Below are positions 30,316-43,368 of a DNA stretch of 64,000 nucleotides, one piece after another. Source of the DNA: Saprospiraceae bacterium (GTDB lineage Bacteria; Bacteroidota; Bacteroidia; Chitinophagales; Saprospiraceae); contig JAHDHL010000008.1 in assembly GCA_020631355.1 (NCBI GenBank), positions 1 through 64,000 of the forward strand, read 5' to 3'. The notes beneath the pieces are model-generated. The model did no database searches and was not told the DNA's origin. It saw only the letters and a program-made list of their open reading frames with translations. Positions within the stretch are counted from its first letter, which is position 1. Each line of letters begins with the position of its first letter. The translations under genes were made by a program, and so were the position numbers.

Positions 30316-32628
30316 ATGAAAAAGATTTTTCTATTTACAATCGTTCTATTATTTACTGCCGTTTCCTTTGCTCAGGAGATTGATGTAGATGACAGGGTAA
30401 ACATTACACAATCAAACAAACCCTTTATCGGAGTGTATGCATTCGGATACCAAGGATCACCCAGCCCTGGATATCCCCAATTCCAATTGAATAACTATGG
30501 TGGAGTACCCGGAGCCGTAGCTGCTACGGCTGATAACTCCGTTTTGGGTATGTTCCAATTCTCAGGTCACGACGGAAATGCAAAGAAAACCGTAGGTGTA
30601 TTAAGGGTTCGTTCCATGGATAACTTCGCCTCACAGCAAAATGCAAGAATGGATTTCCAACTCGGTGCTACCAGACAATTGAGAATGACCATTCTTGGAG
30701 CCAACGGTAATGTAGGAATAGGTACAGAGACACCACAGTCCAAATTACATGTTAAGGGCGATAATTTATCTGCTGGAATAATGCGTTTGGAAGGTCCTCA
30801 GTCCAATGCCTATGCATTATGGTTTGTGGATGATGTCTATACTGGGTATTTAGGTAGCTATAATGGAGCCTCTGATATGGACTTTGGTACAGGAGATAGT
30901 AATAGTACAGGTAAAACCCACTTGGTTACGCAAGCCATACCTAGATTGACGGTAGCAGCAGATGGTAATATCGGTATCGGAACCACTGATCCGGGAATCA
31001 ATAGATTATTAGTTACTACAGATGGCACGAATGCCATCTCAGCAACAAGTTCTAATCCTGGCGGAACATTCTTTAACCTTGATAATTCTTCTGCTGATGG
31101 AGAATCCTGGAATTTGATTTCCACAGGTGCGACCAATTCCGAGGGGGCGGGTAAATTGGCATTCCAAACATTCGCAGGTGCGAGCCCCGGAACCAAAATG
31201 ACCATCCAAGTAGATGGCAATGTGGGTATCGGTACACCTAACCCTGGAGTTAGATTGGATGTAGTAGGTGATGGTTCAGGTGACGTCGCTACATTCAGTA
31301 GTGGAGGATCTACAACGAATAAAGTGAATTTCAATTCGAATTCAGGTTATTTAGGATATATCGGTTCTTCTGTGGTAGCTGGTGATTTGGAATTAGGTAC
31401 AGGAGGAACAAGTTCAAATGCTATTAATTTGAATACCCAAAATGTAACAAGATTGAAAGTTACTGCTGATGGTAAGGTAGGTATCGGGATGACGGATCCT
31501 AATGATGCCCTAGACATCGAGACAGATGGAGCAACCACGAATAGTGCCATTGATGCGAAAGTGAATTATGTAGGTTCAGTTGACATAAGAGGTATCGATA
31601 TCAATAATGAACCTGGAGAAGGCTTTGGTTATGGCGTATATGGAACAGCAGGATATATGGGATTATATGGTCAATCTAATGGAGGAGCTTATTCAGGTTC
31701 TACTTATGGTGTATATGGTTTAGCTTCAGGAACAGCAGGCAATCGTTATTCTGTTTATGGTGCAGGAGTCACAGGTACTGGGTCTACAGAATATGCAGGT
31801 TATTTCGCTGGAAATGTTACGGTGACAGGTACATTCAATAACCCATCTGATGCAAGATTGAAGAAGAATGTAAAGGATTATGAGAATGCTTTGGAAATCA
31901 TCAGCCAATTGGATGCTAAGACCTACGAGTTCAAGAACAATGAGTACGAACAAATGGGGCTTCCACAAGGTCCGCAAATCGGTTTCATCGCCCAGGAATT
32001 GGAAAAGGTATTACCATCATTGGTTAAGGAGAATGTACATCCGGAAGTAGTGGAGCATGACGAAGAAGGAAATAGGACGGTAGTCAAGGAAGCTGTTTCC
32101 TACAAAGGTGTGGATTATAGGGCTTTGATTCCTGTATTGACAGCGGGTATCAAGGAGTTGAATGGTGAAGTAGAAGCCAAGGACGAAACCATCGAAGAAC
32201 TTCAGTCCCAATTGGATGCTATGTCGAAGAAGATGGAGCAAATGTCTGAATTGATAAGTGATATGAATGATAAGTTCAATCAAGTGGAAGAAGATATGAG
32301 CCAGTATTTCATTGGAAATGAGGATTCTAGAATGGGAACTACAAATGTTGAATTAAATGGAAATGACATCGCTGCATTGGAGCAGAATATGCCCAATCCT
32401 TTCCATGAGAACACAACAATCAAGTACTATATCCCATCCTCATCACAAAGAGCCATGATGACAATCACTGATATCAAGGGTTCACCCCTGAAGTCTGTCA
32501 ACCTAGAGGGAACTGGCCTAGGTACAGTAACCATCAATGCAAATGAATTACCTGTTGGTACTTACATTTACACCCTTTTTGTGGATGGTAGACAAATTGC
32601 ATCCAAGCAAATGATCTTAGTGAAGTAA
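30316..32628 (+). CDS. Secreted tail-fibre-like protein 1 (S74 chaperone domain, T9SS type A)
   Basis: 770 residues. Signal peptide 1-19 (TAVSFA). Residues 20-140 are the module shared by all four paralogues (DRVNITQSNKPFIGVYAFGY, MFQFSGHDGNAKKTVGVLRV). The shaft has four GIGT-type repeats (NVGIGTETP, NIGIGTTDP, NVGIGTPNP, KVGIGMTDP) and a Gly/Tyr-rich stretch (YGVYGTAGYMG). The intramolecular chaperone (Peptidase S74) starts NNPSDARLKKNV with the dyad Ser511/Lys516; YEFKNNEYEQMGLP and QIGFIAQELEKVLPSLVKE follow. A coiled coil spans about 620-665, and the T9SS type A domain starts LEQNMPNPFHENTTIKYY. Unlike its three relatives it has DMSQYF, not DMSQCC, after the coil. It is probably a trimeric surface fibre. 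Confidence 0.88.
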   Translation: MKKIFLFTIVLLFTAVSFAQEIDVDDRVNITQSNKPFIGVYAFGYQGSPSPGYPQFQLNNYGGVPGAVAATADNSVLGMFQFSGHDGNAKKTVGVLRVRSMDNFASQQNARMDFQLGATRQLRMTILGANGNVGIGTETPQSKLHVKGDNLSAGIMRLEGPQSNAYALWFVDDVYTGYLGSYNGASDMDFGTGDSNSTGKTHLVTQAIPRLTVAADGNIGIGTTDPGINRLLVTTDGTNAISATSSNPGGTFFNLDNSSADGESWNLISTGATNSEGAGKLAFQTFAGASPGTKMTIQVDGNVGIGTPNPGVRLDVVGDGSGDVATFSSGGSTTNKVNFNSNSGYLGYIGSSVVAGDLELGTGGTSSNAINLNTQNVTRLKVTADGKVGIGMTDPNDALDIETDGATTNSAIDAKVNYVGSVDIRGIDINNEPGEGFGYGVYGTAGYMGLYGQSNGGAYSGSTYGVYGLASGTAGNRYSVYGAGVTGTGSTEYAGYFAGNVTVTGTFNNPSDARLKKNVKDYENALEIISQLDAKTYEFKNNEYEQMGLPQGPQIGFIAQELEKVLPSLVKENVHPEVVEHDEEGNRTVVKEAVSYKGVDYRALIPVLTAGIKELNGEVEAKDETIEELQSQLDAMSKKMEQMSELISDMNDKFNQVEEDMSQYFIGNEDSRMGTTNVELNGNDIAALEQNMPNPFHENTTIKYYIPSSSQRAMMTITDIKGSPLKSVNLEGTGLGTVTINANELPVGTYIYTLFVDGRQIASKQMILVK

Positions 32629-32654
32629 TTCGAAAAAACAAGTATACTATCACG

Positions 32655-32689
32655 AACCTCCTTGGGAATTTTCCAAGGAGGTTTTTAAT
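32655..32689 (+). terminator. Terminator after tail-fibre-like gene 1
   Basis: AACCTCCTTGG (32655-32665) pairs with CCAAGGAGGTT (32673-32683), then TTTAATTTTTT. Confidence 0.92.
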
Positions 32690-32798
32690 TTTTTTAGATT
32701 TCAATGGTAACAAATTGATTCGATAGGGTACCTCACATTGGAAACCGGTTATTCCACCATAAATCACTCTTTAGTATCAGGACCAATGCTTGCACTTA

Positions 32799-32836
32799 CT
32801 TCTTTTCCAAAAAGAAGCTAGGGGTCCATTGACTTG
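32799..32836 (+). promoter_or_regulatory. Leader dyad and CATTGACTTG motif before tail-fibre-like gene 2
   Basis: CTTCTTTT (32799-32806) and AAAAGAAG (32810-32817) form an 8-bp inverted repeat. CATTGACTTG (32827-32836) follows, 13 nt before the ATG. The same ten bases recur before gene 4 (37963-37972). No TAnnTTTG box was found in this gap. Confidence 0.35.
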
Positions 32837-32849
32837 AAAATCGAATCAA

Positions 32850-34913
32850 ATGAAAAAATGTTTTGTAGTCATCATCATGTTCATGATGACAACCCTCAGT
32901 TTATGGTCACAAGAAATCAATGTCGATGACCGAGTAACCATTACCCAATCCAATAAACCTTTCATAGGTGTCTATACATTCGGATACCAAGGATTACCAT
33001 CCTCAGGTTATCCCCAATTCCAATTGAACAATTACGGAGGTACACCCACCAATATCCAAGCAACCAACGATAATTCCATCCTCGGTATGTTCGCTTTCTC
33101 TGGACATAATGGTAGTGCAAAGAAAACCGTAGGTATCCTGCGGGTGAAGTCCATGAATGATTTCAGTAGTAATCTTTCCGCCAGAATGGATTTTCTTATC
33201 GGCCCTAATCGGGAACAAAGAATGACCATCATCGGGGATTCGGGTTTCATCGGAATGGGAACCCAGCTTCCACAGACCCAATTACACATTCAGGGGAATA
33301 CGCCAAATGTAGCAGGTACAACAAGTGACTTGGTGGATGTCCTCGTCGAGGATGACCAGTTTGCCTACTATGAGGCCAAGTCCGATACTTGGGCTGGATA
33401 CACATTCCACACCAATAACTCCTCCCTCAATTCAGGTATGTTCTACAATCACTTCGATAACCATTTGATCTTCACATCAGGTGGTTTACAACCCAGGATG
33501 CTGATAGACAACCAAGGTAGGATAGGAGTAGGATTGAATGGTGACTTACCCACACAAAATATGGATGTTGGTGGCCTGATTAGGATGAGACTTGGCGCAC
33601 AGGCGGGATATATTCCCGTTTCTGATGCCGAGGGCGTCATGAATTGGGTTGACCCCAGTACGATAATGGGTTCACAGAGTCCTTGGTCTTCCAATGTTGC
33701 GAATATTTACTACGATCAAGGAGATGTGTCAATAGGAACCAACAATGCTACTGCTAAGTTGGAAGTAAGGGACACGGATAATCCTACCCATGATGTAACG
33801 ATCAAGGCCACAAGTAATGTCAATTCCACTACTGCTACTGTCATTGAGGCCAACTACGAGAACAACAGTATCTATGACGGCACGGCCATATCTGCATGGA
33901 GTAATACGGTGAGTGGATACGGTTATGCCGTGAGGGGTATAGCAGGGTATATGGGTATTCTGGGGGAAGCTCAGGGTGGTGGTTATACCGGCTCTGCTTT
34001 CGGAGTTTATGGATATGCCAGTGGTGATGCAGGTACACGTTACTCCATATATGGTGATGATGTTACAGGTATGCCGTCAGCAGGTTATGCGGGATATTTC
34101 AATGGTGATGTGAGCGTATTGGGTACATTCAATAATCCTTCTGATGCCAGATTGAAAAAGAATGTAAAGACTTATGAGGACGCATTGGGAATCATCTCTC
34201 AATTGAATGCCAAAACCTATGAATTCAGGAATACAGAGTACGGCCATATGGGACTTCCTGATGGGCGACAAATCGGGTTTATAGCACAGGAGTTGGAAGA
34301 AGTGTTACCATCATTGGTCAAGGAGAACATCCATCCTGAAATTACCGAGCGTGATGGCGAGGGCAATAGGGTCGTTGTCAGGGAAGCTGTGAGTTACAAA
34401 GGAGTGGATTATATGGCATTGATACCCGTACTGGCCCAAGGAATCAAGGAGTTGGATAATGAGAATCAGGAGTTGCAATCTACAAATGAGAAACTGATGG
34501 ATGAGTTGGCGGAGATGAAAGCTCAATTCAATCAGTTAGCCAATCAGGTGAATGAGAAATTCAATCAGATGGAGGAGGATATGAGCCAGTGCTGCATGAC
34601 AGAAATTGATTCAAGAATGACGAATACGGATATAGATTTGAATGGTGGTGATATGGCTACTTTAGAACAGAATATACCCAATCCGTTCCATCAGCAAACC
34701 ATCATCAAGTACTATATTCCGTCCTCAGCCCAAAATGCCATTTTGACCATAACCGATATGAGGGGAGCCCCTCTGAAGTCAGTTGACCTTGTGGAAACAG
34801 GTTTGGGAACAGTGACCATCAATGCCAATGAACTTCCTGTTGGAACATACATCTACTCCCTTTTTGTGGATGGTAGACAAATTGCTTCTAAGCAAATGAT
34901 TCTTGTAAAATAA
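32850..34913 (+). CDS. Secreted tail-fibre-like protein 2 (S74 chaperone domain, T9SS type A)
   Basis: 687 residues, the shortest of the four. Signal peptide with TTLSLWSQ. The N-terminal module is conserved (DRVTITQSNKPFIGVYTFGY). The shaft has three degenerate GIGT repeats (FIGMGTQLP, RIGVGLNGD, DVSIGTNNA) and a Gly-rich stretch like that of protein 1. Chaperone opening NNPSDARLKKNVKTYEDAL, dyad Ser431/Lys436, with QIGFIAQELEEVLPSLVKEN close to protein 1. A coiled coil and DMSQCC follow, then the sorting domain LEQNIPNPFHQQTIIKYY ending KQMILVK, almost the same as in protein 1 at both protein and DNA level. This looks like a recent duplication or gene conversion of the 3' part. Confidence 0.88.
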   Translation: MKKCFVVIIMFMMTTLSLWSQEINVDDRVTITQSNKPFIGVYTFGYQGLPSSGYPQFQLNNYGGTPTNIQATNDNSILGMFAFSGHNGSAKKTVGILRVKSMNDFSSNLSARMDFLIGPNREQRMTIIGDSGFIGMGTQLPQTQLHIQGNTPNVAGTTSDLVDVLVEDDQFAYYEAKSDTWAGYTFHTNNSSLNSGMFYNHFDNHLIFTSGGLQPRMLIDNQGRIGVGLNGDLPTQNMDVGGLIRMRLGAQAGYIPVSDAEGVMNWVDPSTIMGSQSPWSSNVANIYYDQGDVSIGTNNATAKLEVRDTDNPTHDVTIKATSNVNSTTATVIEANYENNSIYDGTAISAWSNTVSGYGYAVRGIAGYMGILGEAQGGGYTGSAFGVYGYASGDAGTRYSIYGDDVTGMPSAGYAGYFNGDVSVLGTFNNPSDARLKKNVKTYEDALGIISQLNAKTYEFRNTEYGHMGLPDGRQIGFIAQELEEVLPSLVKENIHPEITERDGEGNRVVVREAVSYKGVDYMALIPVLAQGIKELDNENQELQSTNEKLMDELAEMKAQFNQLANQVNEKFNQMEEDMSQCCMTEIDSRMTNTDIDLNGGDMATLEQNIPNPFHQQTIIKYYIPSSAQNAILTITDMRGAPLKSVDLVETGLGTVTINANELPVGTYIYSLFVDGRQIASKQMILVK

Positions 34914-34936
34914 TTTCGATATAAAAACAACGCCAA

Positions 34937-34971
34937 AATGGCCTCCTGGGAAATTTTCCGAGGAGGCTTTT
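34937..34971 (+). terminator. Terminator after tail-fibre-like gene 2
   Basis: GCCTCCT (34941-34947) pairs with AGGAGGC (34961-34967), with inner GGGAAA/TTTTCC pairing, followed by TTTT. Confidence 0.88.
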
Positions 34972-35001
34972 AAGCGTAAGGTATCCGCTGAAAGCATATT
35001 G

Positions 35002-35032
35002 ATTCCGATTCTCGTTTGGGGTGAATCGGAAT
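35002..35032 (+). promoter_or_regulatory. Inverted repeat in the gap before tail-fibre-like gene 3
   Basis: ATTCCGATTC (35002-35011) pairs perfectly with GAATCGGAAT (35023-35032) across an 11-nt loop. It is not followed by a T-run, so it may be an operator. The rest of this 370-bp gap (34914-35283) is AT-rich with only a weak TAAGTTTA box near 35232. Confidence 0.4.
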
Positions 35033-35283
35033 TCGTCATTAAATAATTTCTAATTGCGGTAACATCTAATTCATAGAGGGTATTGATTGTGGAATGCTTA
35101 TGTGATGAAATGAATGATTGTGTTTCACAAAATATCTTGTAATAAATTGATATATAGTGATTTATTGTTTTTTAATGAGTTTTTGGGAGTCACATTCTAA
35201 TAATTTCAAACTGGCATTTAGTGTCATTATTCTTAAGTTTATATAACGGATCTGAAATATTTTCATTGAATCTAAATACCAAA

Positions 35284-37611
35284 ATGATGAAAAACTTATT
35301 ACTAACATCTTTCGCATTGCTATTTTCAATAGGCATTTTTGCACAGGAAGTCAATGCGGACGATAGGGTGAATATCACCCAAGCCAACAAACCATTTATC
35401 GGGGTTTATGCCTTTGGATACCAAGGCTCACCCAACCCCGGTTACCCTCAATTCCAATTGAATAATTATGGCGGTGTACCCGGAGCCGTAGAGGCTACTG
35501 CCGATAATTCCATCTTGGGTATGTTCCAGTTCTCAGGGCATAATGGCTCTGCAAAAAGAACCGTAGGTGTACTCAGGGTAAGAGCATTGGACAATTTCGC
35601 TGCAACACAAAGTGCAAGGATGGATTTCCAATTGGGCCCACAACGCCAACTAAGAATGTCTATCCTTGGGGATAATGGTAATATCGGTATCGGTACTGAT
35701 GCACCTGCTACTCCGCTTCACATTTACAGGGAAGACGAAAATGCTGATGTGACCATCGAAGCATCCAGTGAATCCAACCTGAACAGCCCGAAGCTTTTCT
35801 TCCGGTCCAATGCTACTATTAATGACCAGTTATCCATCATCAAATGGGGTAACTCAGCTACGGGAAGTACACTAAGTGATGGCTCCTTGGATCTGGCCGG
35901 TTTATCGGAAATCAGAACGGGAGCAGCATCAACCGGAGGCTTGTTGATGGGAACAATCAATTATGCTCCTGCCATGCTAGCCACAAATAATAATATTGCA
36001 CTGATTGCCACCCCTGACCAAAGAATTGGTGTAGGGAACACGGTACCCAATACCAAGATGGATGTTGCCACTGATCCTACCCTTGATGGCTCCATTGGTG
36101 TGATTCGGGCAAGAACCAATTATGTCGGTAGTTCCGATGTTCGTGCCGTAGAGGGCCACTCAGTAACCAACCCGGGCTTTGGTGTCGGTGGCTACTTCAC
36201 AGGTGGTTATAGGGGGGCATATATCTATAATGACGGTGCAGAATACACTGGAAGCTCCTATGGTGCCTATATGTATGCCAATGGTACTGCGGGTACCAGA
36301 TATGGTTCATACTCATTAGCGGACAATGATGGAGGTAATTTGTCATATGGCGCATATGCAATAGGTAGGGACGCTACCACGAATTATGGTATCTATGCCA
36401 CTGCTTTCGGAGGTACAAACAACTATGCCGGATATTTCCAAGGAGAAACTGTCATTAATACAGATTCAGGTAATTTGCAGATCAGGGACGAAAGTGCAGA
36501 TAAAGGAATTTATTTTGACGGAGAGAACAACGGTGATAATGTAACAGTAAAAAGTATCGAAGATGATGATGACTTATTGTCCATCAGTACCGATGTTGAA
36601 AGGGTAGGTATCAATACCCTGCCTTATTTCACATTTGATATACATCATGAACTAGGTGTTCCTAGTAATGGAGAAGTTGCTATAGAGGATAGTGGTATTG
36701 GTAATTATAATGGATTGAATATCCATAATAACTACAATGGCCTTTTGGATAATCACTGGACCATGTATGCCTATTCGGATGCAAGATTGGCCTTGTACAG
36801 GGATGGTCAACAAGTAGGACAATTCAACGGAACGACTGGTTCTTATACGACTACTTCTGACCGTAAGTTGAAGCGTGATATCAAGGAAATGGATTCCCAG
36901 ATGGAAAAAATCATGGAATTGAAACCTAGTACCTATATCTACAAGAGAGACAAGGAAAATATCACTCGTTATGGTCTGATTGCTCAGGAGGTACACGAAG
37001 TGTATCCTCAGTTGGCACCCATTATGACCAATAAGACAGACGGAGATAAGGAAGACATCAGAGGTGTGACTTATACCGAATTCATTCCTATCCTAATCGC
37101 TGGTCTACAAGAGCAATACGGAAAGGTAAAGGAAGGAGAGGAAGAAATAGAGGAGTTGAAAGAAGCCAATGACGAGTTGAGGGCAGAATTGGATGTTATG
37201 AAAGATAAGATGGCTGAAATGGCCCAGATGATGAGCGATATGAATGATAAGTTCAATTTGATTGAGGATGATATGAGCCAGTGTTGTGCAGGTGCGGAAG
37301 AAAGAAAAGGTGATGCTGCTAATACTTTCGTTGAATTGAACGGTGCGGATGTCCCATCATTGGAGCAGAATACTCCTAATCCATTCTACGAACAGACGGT
37401 TATCAACTACTATGTCCCATCCTATGCTAAGAAGTCCATTATGACAATTACGGACCTTAAGGGATCCCCATTGAAATCCGTTAACCTAGAAGGTACAGGA
37501 TTGGGTACCGTAACCATCAATGCGAATGAACTACCTGCGGGTACTTATATTTATACCTTATTTGTTGATGGAAGACAAGTGGCTTCCAAGCAAATGATTT
37601 TGGTACACTAA
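35284..37611 (+). CDS. Secreted tail-fibre-like protein 3 (S74 chaperone domain, T9SS type A)
   Basis: 775 residues from ATG 35284 (MMKNLLLTSFALLFSIGIFAQ, a good signal peptide). The longer frame back to 35221 starts with GTG and would spoil the signal. The conserved module follows (DRVNITQANKPFIGVYAFGY), then a shaft with GIGT repeats (NIGIGTDAP, RIGVGNTVP, RVGINTLPY) and a Tyr/Gly-rich region. The chaperone domain opens TTSDRKLKRDIKEMDSQMEKIM with dyad Ser525/Lys530, and it has RYGLIAQEVHEVYP, the same subtype as protein 4. A coiled coil and DMSQCC follow. The sorting domain (SLEQNTPNPFYEQTVINYY, SPLKSVNLEGTGLGTVTIN) is the subtype of protein 1, so the gene is mosaic. Confidence 0.88.
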   Translation: MMKNLLLTSFALLFSIGIFAQEVNADDRVNITQANKPFIGVYAFGYQGSPNPGYPQFQLNNYGGVPGAVEATADNSILGMFQFSGHNGSAKRTVGVLRVRALDNFAATQSARMDFQLGPQRQLRMSILGDNGNIGIGTDAPATPLHIYREDENADVTIEASSESNLNSPKLFFRSNATINDQLSIIKWGNSATGSTLSDGSLDLAGLSEIRTGAASTGGLLMGTINYAPAMLATNNNIALIATPDQRIGVGNTVPNTKMDVATDPTLDGSIGVIRARTNYVGSSDVRAVEGHSVTNPGFGVGGYFTGGYRGAYIYNDGAEYTGSSYGAYMYANGTAGTRYGSYSLADNDGGNLSYGAYAIGRDATTNYGIYATAFGGTNNYAGYFQGETVINTDSGNLQIRDESADKGIYFDGENNGDNVTVKSIEDDDDLLSISTDVERVGINTLPYFTFDIHHELGVPSNGEVAIEDSGIGNYNGLNIHNNYNGLLDNHWTMYAYSDARLALYRDGQQVGQFNGTTGSYTTTSDRKLKRDIKEMDSQMEKIMELKPSTYIYKRDKENITRYGLIAQEVHEVYPQLAPIMTNKTDGDKEDIRGVTYTEFIPILIAGLQEQYGKVKEGEEEIEELKEANDELRAELDVMKDKMAEMAQMMSDMNDKFNLIEDDMSQCCAGAEERKGDAANTFVELNGADVPSLEQNTPNPFYEQTVINYYVPSYAKKSIMTITDLKGSPLKSVNLEGTGLGTVTINANELPAGTYIYTLFVDGRQVASKQMILVH

Positions 37612-37635
37612 TCATTGTAATGATTATTGATTTGG

Positions 37636-37666
37636 AAGCCCTCATGCCTTGCATGGGGGCTTTTTA
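37636..37666 (+). terminator. Terminator after tail-fibre-like gene 3
   Basis: AAGCCCTCATGC (37636-37647), ctt loop, GCATGGGGGCTT (37651-37662) with one G-U pair, then TTT and AT-rich DNA. Confidence 0.9.
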
Positions 37667-38003
37667 TATTGATAATAATATTCATTGGAATTCACAAAAA
37701 GGTTGAATTTTGTTTTCAATAAATTAATAATCAACCAATTATAATAATTGATTCGTTGGTTTTGTTTCACAAATCCCGAATTTAAGATTGTCCATTGCAT
37801 TTAAGTTTGATAGTTTTAATTGATAATGGAACTAGCAGATTCCAAATACAACCAAATGAATTATCATTTTGGCAAAGGGTAGGGCTTTCGGATTCGTTCC
37901 ACAGCCTTATCCTAGCCAAATTCACCTTTTGGGGTGAAAAATGAGCCAGCATCTTGCCCTATCATTGACTTGTTATTGAATCATTCATCTAAATTCAAGT
38001 CAA
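37667..38003 (+). promoter_or_regulatory. Gap before tail-fibre-like gene 4
   Basis: 337 bp without a gene. TTCACC (37921-37926) and GGTGAA (37933-37938) form a short dyad. CATTGACTTG lies at 37963-37972, 31 nt before the ATG, as also seen before gene 2. No TAnnTTTG box was recognised. Confidence 0.3.
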
Positions 38004-40421
38004 ATGAGAATATTTATTTTAATCGTCCTTTTGGGATTGTTTTCCACAATGGCTTTCGCACAGGAAGTGGATGCGGATGACAGGGTTAATATTACCCAAG
38101 TAAGCAAACCATTCATTGGGGTATATGCCTTTGGTTACCAAGGCTCGCCCAATCCGGGTTATCCCCAATTCCAATTGAATAATTATGGAGGAGTGCCCGG
38201 AAGTGTGGCTGCCACCGCAGATAATTCCATCCTAGGAATGTTCCAGTTTTCGGGACATGATGGTTCTGCTAAGAAAACAGTGGGTGTAATCCGTGTGCGG
38301 TCAATGGATAATTTTGCCACGAACCTAACCTCAAGAATGGATTTCCAAATCGGTCCGCAACGTCAGCTAAGGATGACCATCCTCGGAGACAACGGATACA
38401 TAGGTATGGGTACGGATACCCCGGAGTCGAATCTCCATGTCGATAGTGAGACAGGTTCGGCCAATGCCAAGATTACCTCAGTGGATGGGTCATCACTTTT
38501 ATTAAGGGCGGGAACGAATGATAATGATGCCTTGGAAGTGGCCAAGTACGGAGCAGGTAATGTGCTTTTACAAGACGCTGTTCCCCTAGCCAATACATCC
38601 ATGATAGCAACGGGAAGTGCATCGACAAGTGGCCTCATCCTAGGAACCCGCTCCAGCAATCCCACTTATCTGATGACGGATGGGGCAATGCGAATGATGG
38701 TGGATGACGATGGTCAGATAGGGGTGAATACCACCAGTCCCAATGCAAGATTACATATCGAAACAGACGACTCATCTACGGAATTCGGTATTAGGAGTGA
38801 AGTGAATTATTCTGGTAGCTTCGATGTGAGAGCCATTTATGGTTCCAGTGTAACCAATCCCGGTTTCGGTTATGGTGGACAATTCATCGGAGGGTACAGA
38901 GGGTCTTACAGCCTCGCCCAAGGTTCGACTTATACCGGGACCTCCATTGGAGCGTATAATATATCGACAGGTACGGCAGGTTCCAGGCGTGGGGCTTACA
39001 ATTTCGGTAATAATCCGGGAGGTAACAATGCCTACGGAAGTTATGATGAGGGTAGGGATGCCATAAATAACTATGGATCATACAACACCGCTTCTGGGGG
39101 TAGTGTGGCCTACGGAACCTATTCGTCTGCTGGCGGAGCTGTTACTAACTGGGCTTCTTACATGGATACTGGGAATAACTATATGAAGGATTCACTTTTC
39201 ATAGGTTCGAATACCAACCAAAGGGCAAGATTGGACGTGTCAGGAACGTCATATTTTGATGATAATGTGACCCTGAATGGGGCGAATGCATATTTCAATA
39301 TGATAGATGCCACAACGAATGATGGAATACGAATAGCTTCCGAATCCGGAGGCGGCATCATTCAGGTTAGGGAATTCCCAACTGACGACATCCTCTCCGT
39401 TTGGAATACAAGCACAGAACGTTTCGGAATCCGACAGGAACCTAACTATACATTGGATGTATTATTCCCAACGGGGATTCCAAGTGCTACTGCGGGTAAT
39501 GGCCTTAACCTGAGGAATGCTGCGGGTGGTGACGATAGCCACTGGACCCTTTATGTTTACTCGTCCAATAACCTCAACTTATTCCACGATGGCAATAACA
39601 TCGGTTCTTTCAATGCAACTACCGGTAATTATACTGCACTTTCAGATCGGACAAAGAAGAAGAATATCGAGGAGTTGGAATCCCAGATGGAAAAAATCAT
39701 GCAATTGAAACCGAGTACCTATATTTTCAAGCATGACAAGGAAAACGCAATACAGTATGGTTTGATTTCGCAGGAGGTCATGGAAGTATATCCCGAAATG
39801 GTGAATAAGATGACGAATGCCGCAGATGGGGATACGGAAGAATTATATGGAATAGAATATGCCACTTTCGTTCCTGTATTGATAGCTGGTCTTCAGGAAC
39901 ACCAAGTGGTAATTGAGGAGAAAGAAGAAGAAATCGAGGAGCTGAAACAACGCAATGAGGATTTGGTGGCGGATAATGCAAATCTGAACGATAAGGTGAA
40001 TGAACTCACCCAAGAGATGGAGCAGGTGAAGCAAATGCTAGCAGGTTTGAATGATAGGTTCAATCAGGTGGAAGAAGATATGAGCCAATGTTGTATGGAG
40101 GAATTGAATGGTAAGGTGGGAATGTCGTCGACTACCTTGGAATTGGAGGATGATGGACAGGAGGCATTTTTGGAGCAGAATGCTCCGAATCCGTTTCATG
40201 CCGAAACCATCATCAAATACTATGTGCCTACATCAGCCAAGGATGCTAAAATGGTGATTACGAATCATCAGGGACGTATCATTAAAACAGCCGACTTGCC
40301 TAATGCAGGCTTAGGACAGCTGTTCATCAAGGCAGGTGAGTTGTCTCCGGGGACTTATGCTTATACCTTGTATGTCAATGACCGAATCGTAGCAACGAAA
40401 CAGATGATTCTTGTAAGATAA
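38004..40421 (+). CDS. Secreted tail-fibre-like protein 4 (S74 chaperone domain, T9SS type A)
   Basis: 805 residues, the longest copy. Signal peptide ends STMAFAQ. The conserved module is DRVNITQVSKPFIGVYAFGY. The shaft has repeats YIGMGTDTP, QIGVNTTSP, LFIGSNTNQ and RFGIRQEPN, plus a Gly/Ser/Tyr-rich stretch about residues 280-380. Chaperone opening ALSDRTKKKNIEELESQMEKIM, dyad Ser547/Lys552, with QYGLISQEVMEVYPEM as in protein 3. A long coiled coil (residues about 640-700) leads to DMSQCC. The sorting domain FLEQNAPNPFHAETIIKYY ... KQMILVR is the most divergent of the four (TADLPNAGLGQLFIKAGELSPG). It has its own terminator. Confidence 0.88.
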   Translation: MRIFILIVLLGLFSTMAFAQEVDADDRVNITQVSKPFIGVYAFGYQGSPNPGYPQFQLNNYGGVPGSVAATADNSILGMFQFSGHDGSAKKTVGVIRVRSMDNFATNLTSRMDFQIGPQRQLRMTILGDNGYIGMGTDTPESNLHVDSETGSANAKITSVDGSSLLLRAGTNDNDALEVAKYGAGNVLLQDAVPLANTSMIATGSASTSGLILGTRSSNPTYLMTDGAMRMMVDDDGQIGVNTTSPNARLHIETDDSSTEFGIRSEVNYSGSFDVRAIYGSSVTNPGFGYGGQFIGGYRGSYSLAQGSTYTGTSIGAYNISTGTAGSRRGAYNFGNNPGGNNAYGSYDEGRDAINNYGSYNTASGGSVAYGTYSSAGGAVTNWASYMDTGNNYMKDSLFIGSNTNQRARLDVSGTSYFDDNVTLNGANAYFNMIDATTNDGIRIASESGGGIIQVREFPTDDILSVWNTSTERFGIRQEPNYTLDVLFPTGIPSATAGNGLNLRNAAGGDDSHWTLYVYSSNNLNLFHDGNNIGSFNATTGNYTALSDRTKKKNIEELESQMEKIMQLKPSTYIFKHDKENAIQYGLISQEVMEVYPEMVNKMTNAADGDTEELYGIEYATFVPVLIAGLQEHQVVIEEKEEEIEELKQRNEDLVADNANLNDKVNELTQEMEQVKQMLAGLNDRFNQVEEDMSQCCMEELNGKVGMSSTTLELEDDGQEAFLEQNAPNPFHAETIIKYYVPTSAKDAKMVITNHQGRIIKTADLPNAGLGQLFIKAGELSPGTYAYTLYVNDRIVATKQMILVR

Positions 40422-42264: not shown

Positions 42265-43368
42265 ATGTTGAGAATTATCCTTTCAATTTTAGCAGTTATT
42301 ATAAGTATGGTAACAATGGCCCAAGATGATTTGAAACATCAATTGGATTCCATTGCAAATTCCGGAATAGAACAGGGTATTCCCGGAATACAAATTCTAA
42401 TCGTAGATGATAATGGTACATTAACGTATAATTACGGTTTTCAGGATAGATCTAAGATTAATGAAGTGAATGATTCTACGAATTGGCGTTACGGAAGTAT
42501 TACAAAAGTATTTACGGCAGTAATGATTCTTCAACTGGAATCAGAGGGTAAGCTATCCATTGATGATGCAGCCTCAAAATACATTGATTTAAAAAGACAC
42601 AATGATGCGGGCATTACCTTGAAACAATTATTGAACCACACATCCGGATTATATAATTATACTGCTGCCGGCCGCTTGGAATACGAGGACACCATGTCCG
42701 AATGTCTTGGATACAGCCTGAAACGTAAATTGAAATTCGAACCCGGAAGTAAATATAAATACTGTAATACCGGCTACTTGATATTGGGGATGATTATTGA
42801 AAAGCTAACGGGACAATCATTCGAACAGAATTTGAATAAAAGAATATTCGAACCTTGCGGTTTGGAAAGCATGATGTATTGTACGGATGATAAGGTACCA
42901 CCAAATACGGCAAGGGGATATGAAAGGAAACGTAAAAAATATAAGGACGTGACCAATATCGACCACAAATGGGCCAATTCCGCTGGTGCAATACTGGGAA
43001 ATTTGAGTGATTTGAATCAATTCGGACAGTGCCTGTTTGATGGTTCCCTGATTGATAGTACCCAACTGAAAAAAATGATTTCTCCCACGATTATTTATAG
43101 GGATGTGGATATTGATGGCGTGGAATGGTATAACCATGCCATCGGAATTTCCTGGTTTTTGAATTTGGATAAGAATGAAGAAACGATTTACGTTTCGCAT
43201 GGCGGCAATACAAGGGGATATAACGTGGATATCCATTACAATACGAGGGAGAATTTAATGATAGTCGTTGGCATGAATTTGTTTCCGAGTGCGAAGTACG
43301 AACCCGTATTCAGTACACAGAATAGGATGATTAATGCAATACACGAATACTATAAAAACAAGAAGTAA
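42265..43368 (+). CDS. Beta-lactamase-fold serine hydrolase (class C/DD-peptidase-like)
   Basis: A 367-residue exported protein; the signal peptide ends SMVTMAQ. All three elements of the penicillin-recognising serine-hydrolase fold are present: Ser78-Ile-Thr-Lys81 (GSITKVF), Tyr166-Cys-Asn168 (YKYCNTGYLILG) and the His-Gly-Gly element at 312-314 (SHGGNTRGY) in place of KTG. The HxG form is common in esterases and D-aminopeptidase-like members rather than true beta-lactamases. LNHTSGLYNY is also typical. It is probably a periplasmic or outer-membrane hydrolase of unknown substrate. Confidence 0.9.
   Translation: MLRIILSILAVIISMVTMAQDDLKHQLDSIANSGIEQGIPGIQILIVDDNGTLTYNYGFQDRSKINEVNDSTNWRYGSITKVFTAVMILQLESEGKLSIDDAASKYIDLKRHNDAGITLKQLLNHTSGLYNYTAAGRLEYEDTMSECLGYSLKRKLKFEPGSKYKYCNTGYLILGMIIEKLTGQSFEQNLNKRIFEPCGLESMMYCTDDKVPPNTARGYERKRKKYKDVTNIDHKWANSAGAILGNLSDLNQFGQCLFDGSLIDSTQLKKMISPTIIYRDVDIDGVEWYNHAIGISWFLNLDKNEETIYVSHGGNTRGYNVDIHYNTRENLMIVVGMNLFPSAKYEPVFSTQNRMINAIHEYYKNKK

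Follow-up and report, generated by a model that had tools for sequence, protein, structure and literature searches.

A tandem family of phage-type, predicted self-cleaving fibres with C-terminal sorting domains in a Saprospiraceae bacterium

Among described systems, the closest to the genes reported here are the mosaic adhesive trimer (MAT) fibres, described from the bacterial predator Bdellovibrio (PMC10769870), and the chaperones of the S74 family, for which published accounts place a Ser/Lys dyad at S587/K592 in MyRF and at S911/K916 in endoNF, with a cut just before the serine that needs trimers. Cargo of the type IX secretion system (T9SS) is in turn described as folding in the periplasm and being led out by a C-terminal domain (CTD), which the sortase PorU removes; according to the same sources, PorU either joins the new C-terminus of the cargo to anionic lipopolysaccharide (A-LPS) or releases the cargo, and the released proteins are a significant subset. 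Within the open-licence literature we found no paper joining S74 fibres with the T9SS, and the MAT paper's supplementary tables of other bacteria may name Bacteroidota. Here, we describe four tandem forward-strand genes, P1 to P4, at positions 30316-40421 of the window, i.e., the whole stretch of 64,000 nucleotides analyzed (contig JAHDHL010000008.1, from a Saprospiraceae bacterium), whose products appear to bring the two together.

The four predicted proteins have a common architecture (Table 1). Behind a signal peptide (called by eye) come a 127-aa N-terminal module (N-module) and a shaft that varies between them; the S74 chaperone, carrying the Ser/Lys dyad, is next, and the chain ends with a coiled coil and a sorting domain. 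A first-pass annotation, made from the sequence alone, had already described four adjacent paralogues with an N-module, a variable shaft, S74, and a coiled coil, and this was borne out by the open reading frames (ORFs) and by the Pfam S74 matches in all four. From sequence, structure models, and analogy, we consider, with a probability of about 0.6, that P1-P4 are MAT-like trimeric adhesive fibres exported by the T9SS, with late cutting by S74; the anatomy, the homologies, the conservation of the dyad, the linked history of tip and chaperone, and the presence of SprA and PorU are established below, and the trimer, the secretion, the order and timing of both cleavages, the orientation, and the binding of these fibres are what we infer.

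The N-module was found in all nine members of the family, from two genomes, starting at residue 20-32. Its identity among P1-P4 was 69-81%, and it is thus strongly conserved and not invariant, as it had been called. When a profile of six N-modules was compared with PDB chains, the matches with E < 1 were exclusively to Bdellovibrio MAT fibres: 8ond (4e-5, summed over three loops), 8ol4 (1.6e-4, in a single stretch covering N-module residues 44-127), 8oml (0.0054), and 8ojn (0.014). The AlphaFold2 model of the P1 N-module had a mean predicted local distance difference test score (pLDDT) of 78, with values of 87 to 94 over residues 51-130, and the 14 best Foldseek matches of this model in the PDB were again Bdellovibrio MAT fibres, six of them with E < 0.001 and the best with 2.9e-7; the best one had a template modelling (TM) score of 0.65 by query and a root-mean-square deviation (rmsd) near 9 Å. 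The next match was the T5 L-shaped fibre 4uw8 (E 0.046, TM 0.51, rmsd 4.3 Å). Aligned with its weak relatives, the second half of the N-module is a common fibre unit ending in RM-I--G-VGIGT--P---L-V. The GIGT loop of this unit aligned with two 14-residue stretches of Bd3182 (8ojn), R to H and F to H, and these fit in length and end letters both capping loops published for this protein, R656-H669 and F752-H765 (PMC10769870). The MAT capping-loop consensus, as printed there, resembles the GIGT loop, with one residue fewer ahead of the proline. These sequence and model comparisons indicate that the core of the N-module is most likely a MAT-like beta-helix shaft unit in a genus-level version, and the candidate of a new stand-alone domain was rejected because of the profile and fold matches to MAT fibres. 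GIGT loops, counted with our own pattern, numbered 4, 1, 2, and 2 in P1, P2, P3, and P4, whereas shuffling each protein 500 times gave 0.008 or fewer on average; the sole loop of P2 is the one within its N-module.

Searching other proteins for the N-module, as the first-pass annotation had proposed, retrieved strong copies in two genomes. Among 298 genomes of the family, strong matches were confined to the source genome and one sister genome of the same genus (two of the six sampled genus genomes), and weak ones were observed in 12 further genomes (E 1.4e-6 to 6.8e-4); among 395 genomes of the phylum, six had any match, including the source genome, the others being weak. These searches scored the best 14 (family) or 11 (phylum) candidates per genome, and weak matches may be missed. 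The sister genome contains three whole copies and a broken one (L039, G206:C81:6733-6906), which covers 57 of the 127 positions and has one stop.

Regarding the C-terminal half, Pfam Peptidase_S74 was detected in P1-P4 well above the cut-off (E 2.3e-17 to 1.4e-14), and the profile matches included the phage long tail fibre 6f45 (3e-20), MyRF (2.4e-16), and the T5 L-shaped fibre (1.6e-9). The dyad, Ser and Lys at i and i+5, is kept in all four genes, with the same spacing as in MyRF, endoNF, and the SDxxxK motif of MATs. The model of the P1 C-terminal half (pLDDT 89.9) showed S74, a 62-residue helix, a loose linker, and six strands. The top Foldseek match of this model was the chaperone of MyRF, with E 3.3e-5, and 3gud, also a chaperone, was matched too. 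At rank 21, amid many beta-sandwich matches, was the CTD of the T9SS cargo mirolase (8qb1; E 5e-3, TM 0.64 by target length). A pilin from an archaeon was also matched with E < 0.001, surely because of the long helix of the model. With TIGR04183, the model of T9SS type A sorting domains (cut-off 23 bits), three of the proteins scored 25.2, 25.8, and 26.3 bits and P4 scored 20.4 bits, whereas with the sorting-domain model PF18962 (cut-off 27 bits) all four were below the cut-off (24.5, 19.1, and 21.4; P4 unlisted). The earlier assignment of a type A domain to each protein is thus backed by TIGR04183 above its cut-off in three; that of P4 falls short of this cut-off, and its CTD is 54-55% identical to those of P1-P3. 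A Cys-Cys pair lies behind the coiled coil in P2, P3, and P4. Relative to the predicted self-cleavage bond, the CTD and the chaperone are on the same side, and the N-module is at the other end of the protein. A profile of the coiled coil and CTD, searched genome-wide, retrieved the six fibres of this genome and two more places at E 1e-5 that matched the CTD part only, and the idea of a tail module common to other T9SS cargo was rejected on these grounds. A 127-aa protein (L223:1381-1764, G000:C110) is made of a signal peptide and a fibre-type CTD only, scores 79 bits against the fibre tail profile, and is perhaps a CTD donor or remnant.

The genome encodes the T9SS components that were searched for, SprA (2496 bits) and the sortase PorU (1287 bits), and contains at least 150 TIGR04183 matches, with 150 of the 413 candidates scored, which shows that it has a T9SS with many clients. 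There are nine S74 matches in it. Six of the proteins carry the N-module, and all six have S74 and a CTD; the two members outside the cluster, in C75 and C101, are 715 and 666 aa long. The remaining three S74 proteins had neither an N-module match nor a C-terminal CTD.

Of the 199 family genomes sampled, 141 had S74, as did 57 of the 198 sampled from the phylum; one family genome had at least 30 matches (best 30 of 45 candidates scored). The proposed comparison across Bacteroidota revealed that the combination of S74 and CTD recurs: a CTD was found behind 20 of 129 S74 stretches in the phylum list, source genome excluded, 18 by pattern and two (L107 and L212) added by eye from their ends. This list omits two weak S74 matches (G006 and G398), and the L200 region, which holds two matches, was counted once. 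The first 59 loci were the best-scoring ones and favour canonical S74, and with the later 100 the phylum list is complete except for G006 and G398. Among these later rows, TIGR04183 at E 0.01 was found in 13 of 100, or 14 of 101 if the row of the window is counted; in the first set it was found in 14 of 66, where calling by pattern and eye gave six CTD rows of the source genome and eight others. Altogether, 34 CTD-bearing rows were available, 20 from the phylum list, five from the family list, six from the source genome, and three from the sister genome. The dyad was kept in 33 of them, the exception being the sister fibre S1, suggesting that cutting is under selection; it was also kept in 128 of 135 CTD-free rows, four of the others having Cys for Ser and three being stand-alone domains without Ser/Lys. 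Behind the coiled coil, 6 of the 31 CTD-bearing rows had the Cys-Cys pair and none of the 134 CTD-free rows did (Fisher p 2.9e-5, kinship uncorrected); when the sister rows were included, the pair was in 8 of 34 CTD-bearing rows. It occurs in four lineages: the source genome, a second genus of the family, a different family of the order, and a further one of the class. Row L204, which is CTD-free, belongs to the 129 and the 135 and lies outside the 134.

Other S74 proteins showed variations of their own. In L180, L183, L184, and L198, from three genomes, Cys replaces the catalytic Ser (CDRN-K or CDKN-K). L186 (G433:C1), L215 (G375:C2), and L204 (G445:C1, minus strand) are short proteins with no fibre, in which a chaperone without Ser/Lys seemingly comes straight after the signal peptide, and it is possible that they are stand-alone chaperones that work in trans. 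Another family of the order has S74 fibre genes with a CTD lying next to each other (L165-L167, G421:C45; L187-L188, G421:C7; L196-L197, G421:C5), and in a different family of the phylum four CTD-free S74 genes are arranged in tandem (L130-L133, G419:C1:488417-493285). The S74 protein L173 (G459:C1:404654-406409) ends in a hydrophobic stretch and RRR, by eye like another kind of C-terminal sorting signal.

The history of the family was analyzed with the six proteins of the source genome and the three of the sister genome, divided into N-module, tip (90 residues before the cut), S74 (100 residues), and CTD. The identities of tip and S74 were correlated (r 0.88; p 0.0001 with nine proteins, p 0.0003 with the eight left when S1 was removed). 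No correlation was observed between S74 and CTD (r 0.18 and 0.19); for tip and CTD, r was -0.08 with and without S1, and for N-module and tip it was 0.21 (p 0.14), or -0.07 without S1. The N-module and the CTD showed some correlation (r 0.44, p 0.047; without S1, 0.52, p 0.030). In the tree of tip plus S74, built without S1, P3, P4, and the sister fibre S2 were grouped at 100/100. These data rejected the groups P1+P2+P3, P1-P4, P1+P3+P4, and S2+S3 (p 3e-7 or less), the CTD data rejected P3+P4+S2 (p 5e-8), and the N-module data rejected P1+P2 (p 0.0096) and P1+P2+P3 (p 0.011). S1 (L045:388-2631, G206:C68) has a degenerate S74 without Ser/Lys and keeps the coiled coil, the Cys pair, and the CTD; compared with X1, a source-genome fibre without module and CTD, its identity is 46% in the tip and 41% in S74, the other eight fibres giving 17-26% (tip) and 26-38% (S74). 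We read these comparisons as exchange of tip-chaperone cassettes between shared ends, the N-module and the CTD, i.e., a two-ended chassis. The common base with varied tips envisaged before is consistent with this as far as common and varied parts go, but the common parts are both ends and what is exchanged would be the tip together with its chaperone. Concerted evolution was also considered, as a simple within-genome average, and it was weak, with differences of 1 to 8 points.

In the reading that we prefer, T9SS-exported MAT-like fibres cut late by S74, each chain would pass Sec, and three chains would be joined via the coiled coil and the S74 chaperone. The C-terminal sorting domain would take the fibre across the outer membrane, and PorU would trim this domain. 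The Ser/Lys dyad of S74 would cut the chain just before Ser, so that chaperone, coiled coil, and CTD would be shed and the tip beside the cut exposed. The mature fibre would consist of the N-module, probably serving as a handle, the beta-helix shaft, and the tip, which may bind surface glycans or another ligand, and the family would diversify by swapping tip-chaperone cassettes between one pair of ends. Since the CTD lies behind the S74 cut, self-cutting in the periplasm would lose the export signal; thus, either cutting is late, or the parts hold together, or the chain crosses before trimerising.

Several observations weigh against this reading. As published accounts have cargo folding in the periplasm and S74 cutting triggered by trimers, a cut made too early could strand the fibre, and the Cys-Cys pair of P2, P3, and P4 would be wasted if it were on the shed part. 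In MATs, S74 is the C-terminus and the paper's account describes no T9SS sorting domain, whereas in P1-P4 a coiled coil, a linker, and the CTD follow. For the N-module, none of the three loops summed in the 8ond match was significant alone, the first 30 residues of the model had a pLDDT near 50, with no fold assigned to the first 30-40, and the single-chain overlays on MATs gave TM values of 0.27 to 0.66 and rmsd values of 7 to 16 Å; the high rmsd may stem from one chain having been taken from an interlaced trimer. The mosaic comparison used a small set, nine proteins from two genomes, with segment borders of our choosing, and the groups for the clade tests were defined when the identity tables were already known. 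The N-module and S74 were also correlated when S1 was included (r 0.41, p 0.022; without it, 0.12, p 0.21), and 5 of the 12 clade tests gave no rejection: the CTD data kept P3+P4 (p 0.057), P1+P3+P4 (0.083), P5+S3 (0.25), and P1+P2 (0.24), and the N-module data kept P3+P4 (p 0.085).

The orientation of the fibre could also be the reverse. PorU would attach A-LPS to the chain at a point past the coiled coil, and the chaperone together with the coiled coil, clamped by disulphides, would remain as the base; cutting would be absent, slow, or non-releasing, and the N-module would be outermost. We regard this as unlikely, and it has several points on its side. The CTD is on the chaperone side of the cut, and PorU is described as joining cargo to A-LPS by its new C-terminus; moreover, C-terminally tagged MATs, S74 ones among them, were reported on the Bdellovibrio surface (PMC10769870), so the chaperone side can stay. 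Both the concentration of the Cys-Cys pair in CTD-bearing rows and the dyad-less S1, with its coiled coil, Cys-Cys pair, and CTD retained, speak for the chaperone side as the base. The kept dyad, as frequent in CTD-bearing as in CTD-free rows, speaks for cutting, and the outer tip would be an unexpected place for the N-module, which is the most conserved part. The first-pass annotation had taken the N-module as the base; with the CTD at the opposite end, beyond the self-cleavage site, either end may face the cell. If S74 cutting after export set the fibres free in the medium, they could be soluble or matrix-bound, with lectin or depolymerase activity. The export and anchor signal is indeed on the cut-off part, no lipobox was seen by sequence at the N-termini, and a significant subset of T9SS cargo is, as cited above, set free; nevertheless, Pfam and NCBIfam scans of the fibres found no enzyme domain, and the MAT authors think that the common N-domain holds the fibre on the cell (PMC10769870). 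We consider this release quite improbable.

The genes could also be left over from a prophage or an extracellular contractile injection system (eCIS): S74 is reported in eCIS operons, and the tip plus S74 matched 642 phage records. Yet no phage record had one place covering 80% of the query, and among the 15 matches listed none went beyond query residue 247, the CTD starting at 278. For the N-module, there was nothing better than E 0.05 in the best 20 of 31 phage records, and the viral contigs had no relative of it, as judged with two peptide patterns only. The base composition of the genes is native: their GC content and GC3 were within the range of the 20 other ORFs of the window, and recent import was rejected because these values give no sign of it. 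Among ten flanking ORFs scanned with PHROGs, seven were without match, two matched families of unknown function, and one matched tail families, with no phage structural gene recognized, in a scan that covered the neighbourhood, the rest of the genome not having been searched for tail operons. A prophage or eCIS origin is accordingly very improbable to us. The absence of phage genes around the cluster, noted before, was confirmed for these ten ORFs with Pfam and PHROGs, and the proposal of host-owned phage-type fibres with an export signal agrees with the S74 and CTD matches and with the lack of phage structural neighbours. For the roles in gliding or kin contact that were also suggested, the present data gave no evidence, no test having been aimed at them.

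The flanking genes were identified by Pfam as serine hydroxymethyltransferase, DUF6428, and a beta-lactamase fold, and by eye as a TonB-receptor-like and a permease-like protein. The beta-lactamase-fold serine hydrolase (42265-43368) adjoins the cluster, and its PHROG tail matches seem due to that domain and not to phage structure. An array conserved in place was unsupported, as the copies in the sister genome (L045 and L047) have different neighbours by eye. The spacers between P1 and P4 are 221, 370, and 392 bases long. The region had 10 terminator-like sites, against 7.2 (sd 2.8) in shuffles, so that the P1 hairpin is backed by its position and stem length only; from the hairpins behind each gene, P1-P4 may be separate transcription units. 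A scan for sigma-70-like promoters was uninformative (17 sites versus 31 in shuffles), and two of the five spacers have a -7 pattern of the Bacteroidota type, while the full promoter pattern is in none of the five.

Table 1. Positions of the fibre genes, their predicted domains, and the hairpins behind them in the window.
Feature	Position	Strand	Remarks
Fibre gene P1	30316..32628	+	770 aa; signal peptide 1-19, N-module 20-146, shaft + tip to 510; S74 from Ser511 (Lys516), coiled coil about 601-662, CTD 688-770
Fibre gene P2	32850..34913	+	687 aa; N-module 21-147, S74 from Ser431, Cys581-Cys582 behind coiled coil, CTD from 605
Fibre gene P3	35284..37611	+	775 aa; N-module 21-147, S74 from Ser525, Cys pair 667-668, CTD from 693; counted from ATG 35284, ORF list has GTG start at 35221
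Fibre gene P4	38004..40421	+	805 aa; N-module 20-146, S74 from Ser547, Cys pair 696-697, CTD from 723
N-module of P1	30373..30753	+	
N-module of P2	32910..33290	+	
N-module of P3	35344..35724	+	
N-module of P4	38061..38441	+	
S74 chaperone core of P1	31846..32028	+	SDARLK
S74 chaperone core of P2	34140..34322	+	SDARLK
S74 chaperone core of P3	36856..37014	+	SDRKLK
S74 chaperone core of P4	39642..39803	+	SDRTKK
T9SS type A CTD of P1	32377..32625	+	six strands in model
T9SS type A CTD of P2	34662..34910	+	
T9SS type A CTD of P3	37360..37608	+	
CTD of P4	40170..40418	+	20.4 bits, below TIGR04183 cut-off
Terminator-like hairpin behind P1	32654..32684	+	14 pairs
Hairpin behind P2	34941..34967	+	inverted self-match only; absent from terminator scan list
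Weak terminator-like hairpin behind P3	37646..37660	+	5 pairs
Terminator-like hairpin behind P4	40445..40483	+	16 pairs

Given the numbers of family and phylum genomes with S74, host fibres of this phage-like kind may form a surface class that is common in Bacteroidota and has received little study, and a CTD located beyond a self-cutting site poses a sharp question for the T9SS: can trimers move through it, and what stops early cutting? Tentatively, it is possible that Bacteroidota merged phage-type self-cutting fibres with the T9SS into a two-cut assembly line, in which a folded or folding trimer is exported by its sorting domain, the S74 cut is delayed until passage is complete and serves as a release or arming switch, a Cys-Cys clamp holds a disposable or anchoring trimer, and each genome has an exchangeable set of tip-chaperone cassettes on a single chassis, some of them also drawn from CTD-free fibres.

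Compared with known systems, P1-P4 share with the S74 subgroup of the MAT superfamily of Bdellovibrio bacteriovorus, as described (PMC10769870), a signal peptide followed by a beta-rich conserved domain of about 130 aa, a beta-helix shaft with capping loops, S74 with SDxxxK, many paralogues, and swapped C-terminal parts. The likeness in the N-domain of about 130 aa is one of architecture only, as the N-module itself resembles MAT shaft units. By sequence, P1-P4 look like a T9SS-exported MAT variant; we did not file them as MAT members because the proteins continue past S74 and the N-module was compared with MAT shaft units only. Phage S74 fibres, such as the T5 L-shaped tail fibre, endosialidases, and long tail fibres, have the chaperone and the Ser/Lys dyad in common with P1-P4, but lack a sorting domain and are part of the virion. 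MyRF of animals is described with the chaperone, the dyad, and a trimeric coiled coil behind it, as in P1-P4, but it is a transcription factor with no sorting domain. With T9SS type A cargo (TIGR04183; mirolase CTD 8qb1), the signal peptide as called by eye, the C-terminal beta-sandwich of the model, and the T9SS are shared; unlike the usual cargo, P1-P4 would be self-cutting fibres with the CTD past the cut. The grappling hooks of ixotrophic bacteria, described as heptamers, and the SprB and RemA adhesins, compared here by description only, are likewise contact proteins exported by the T9SS.

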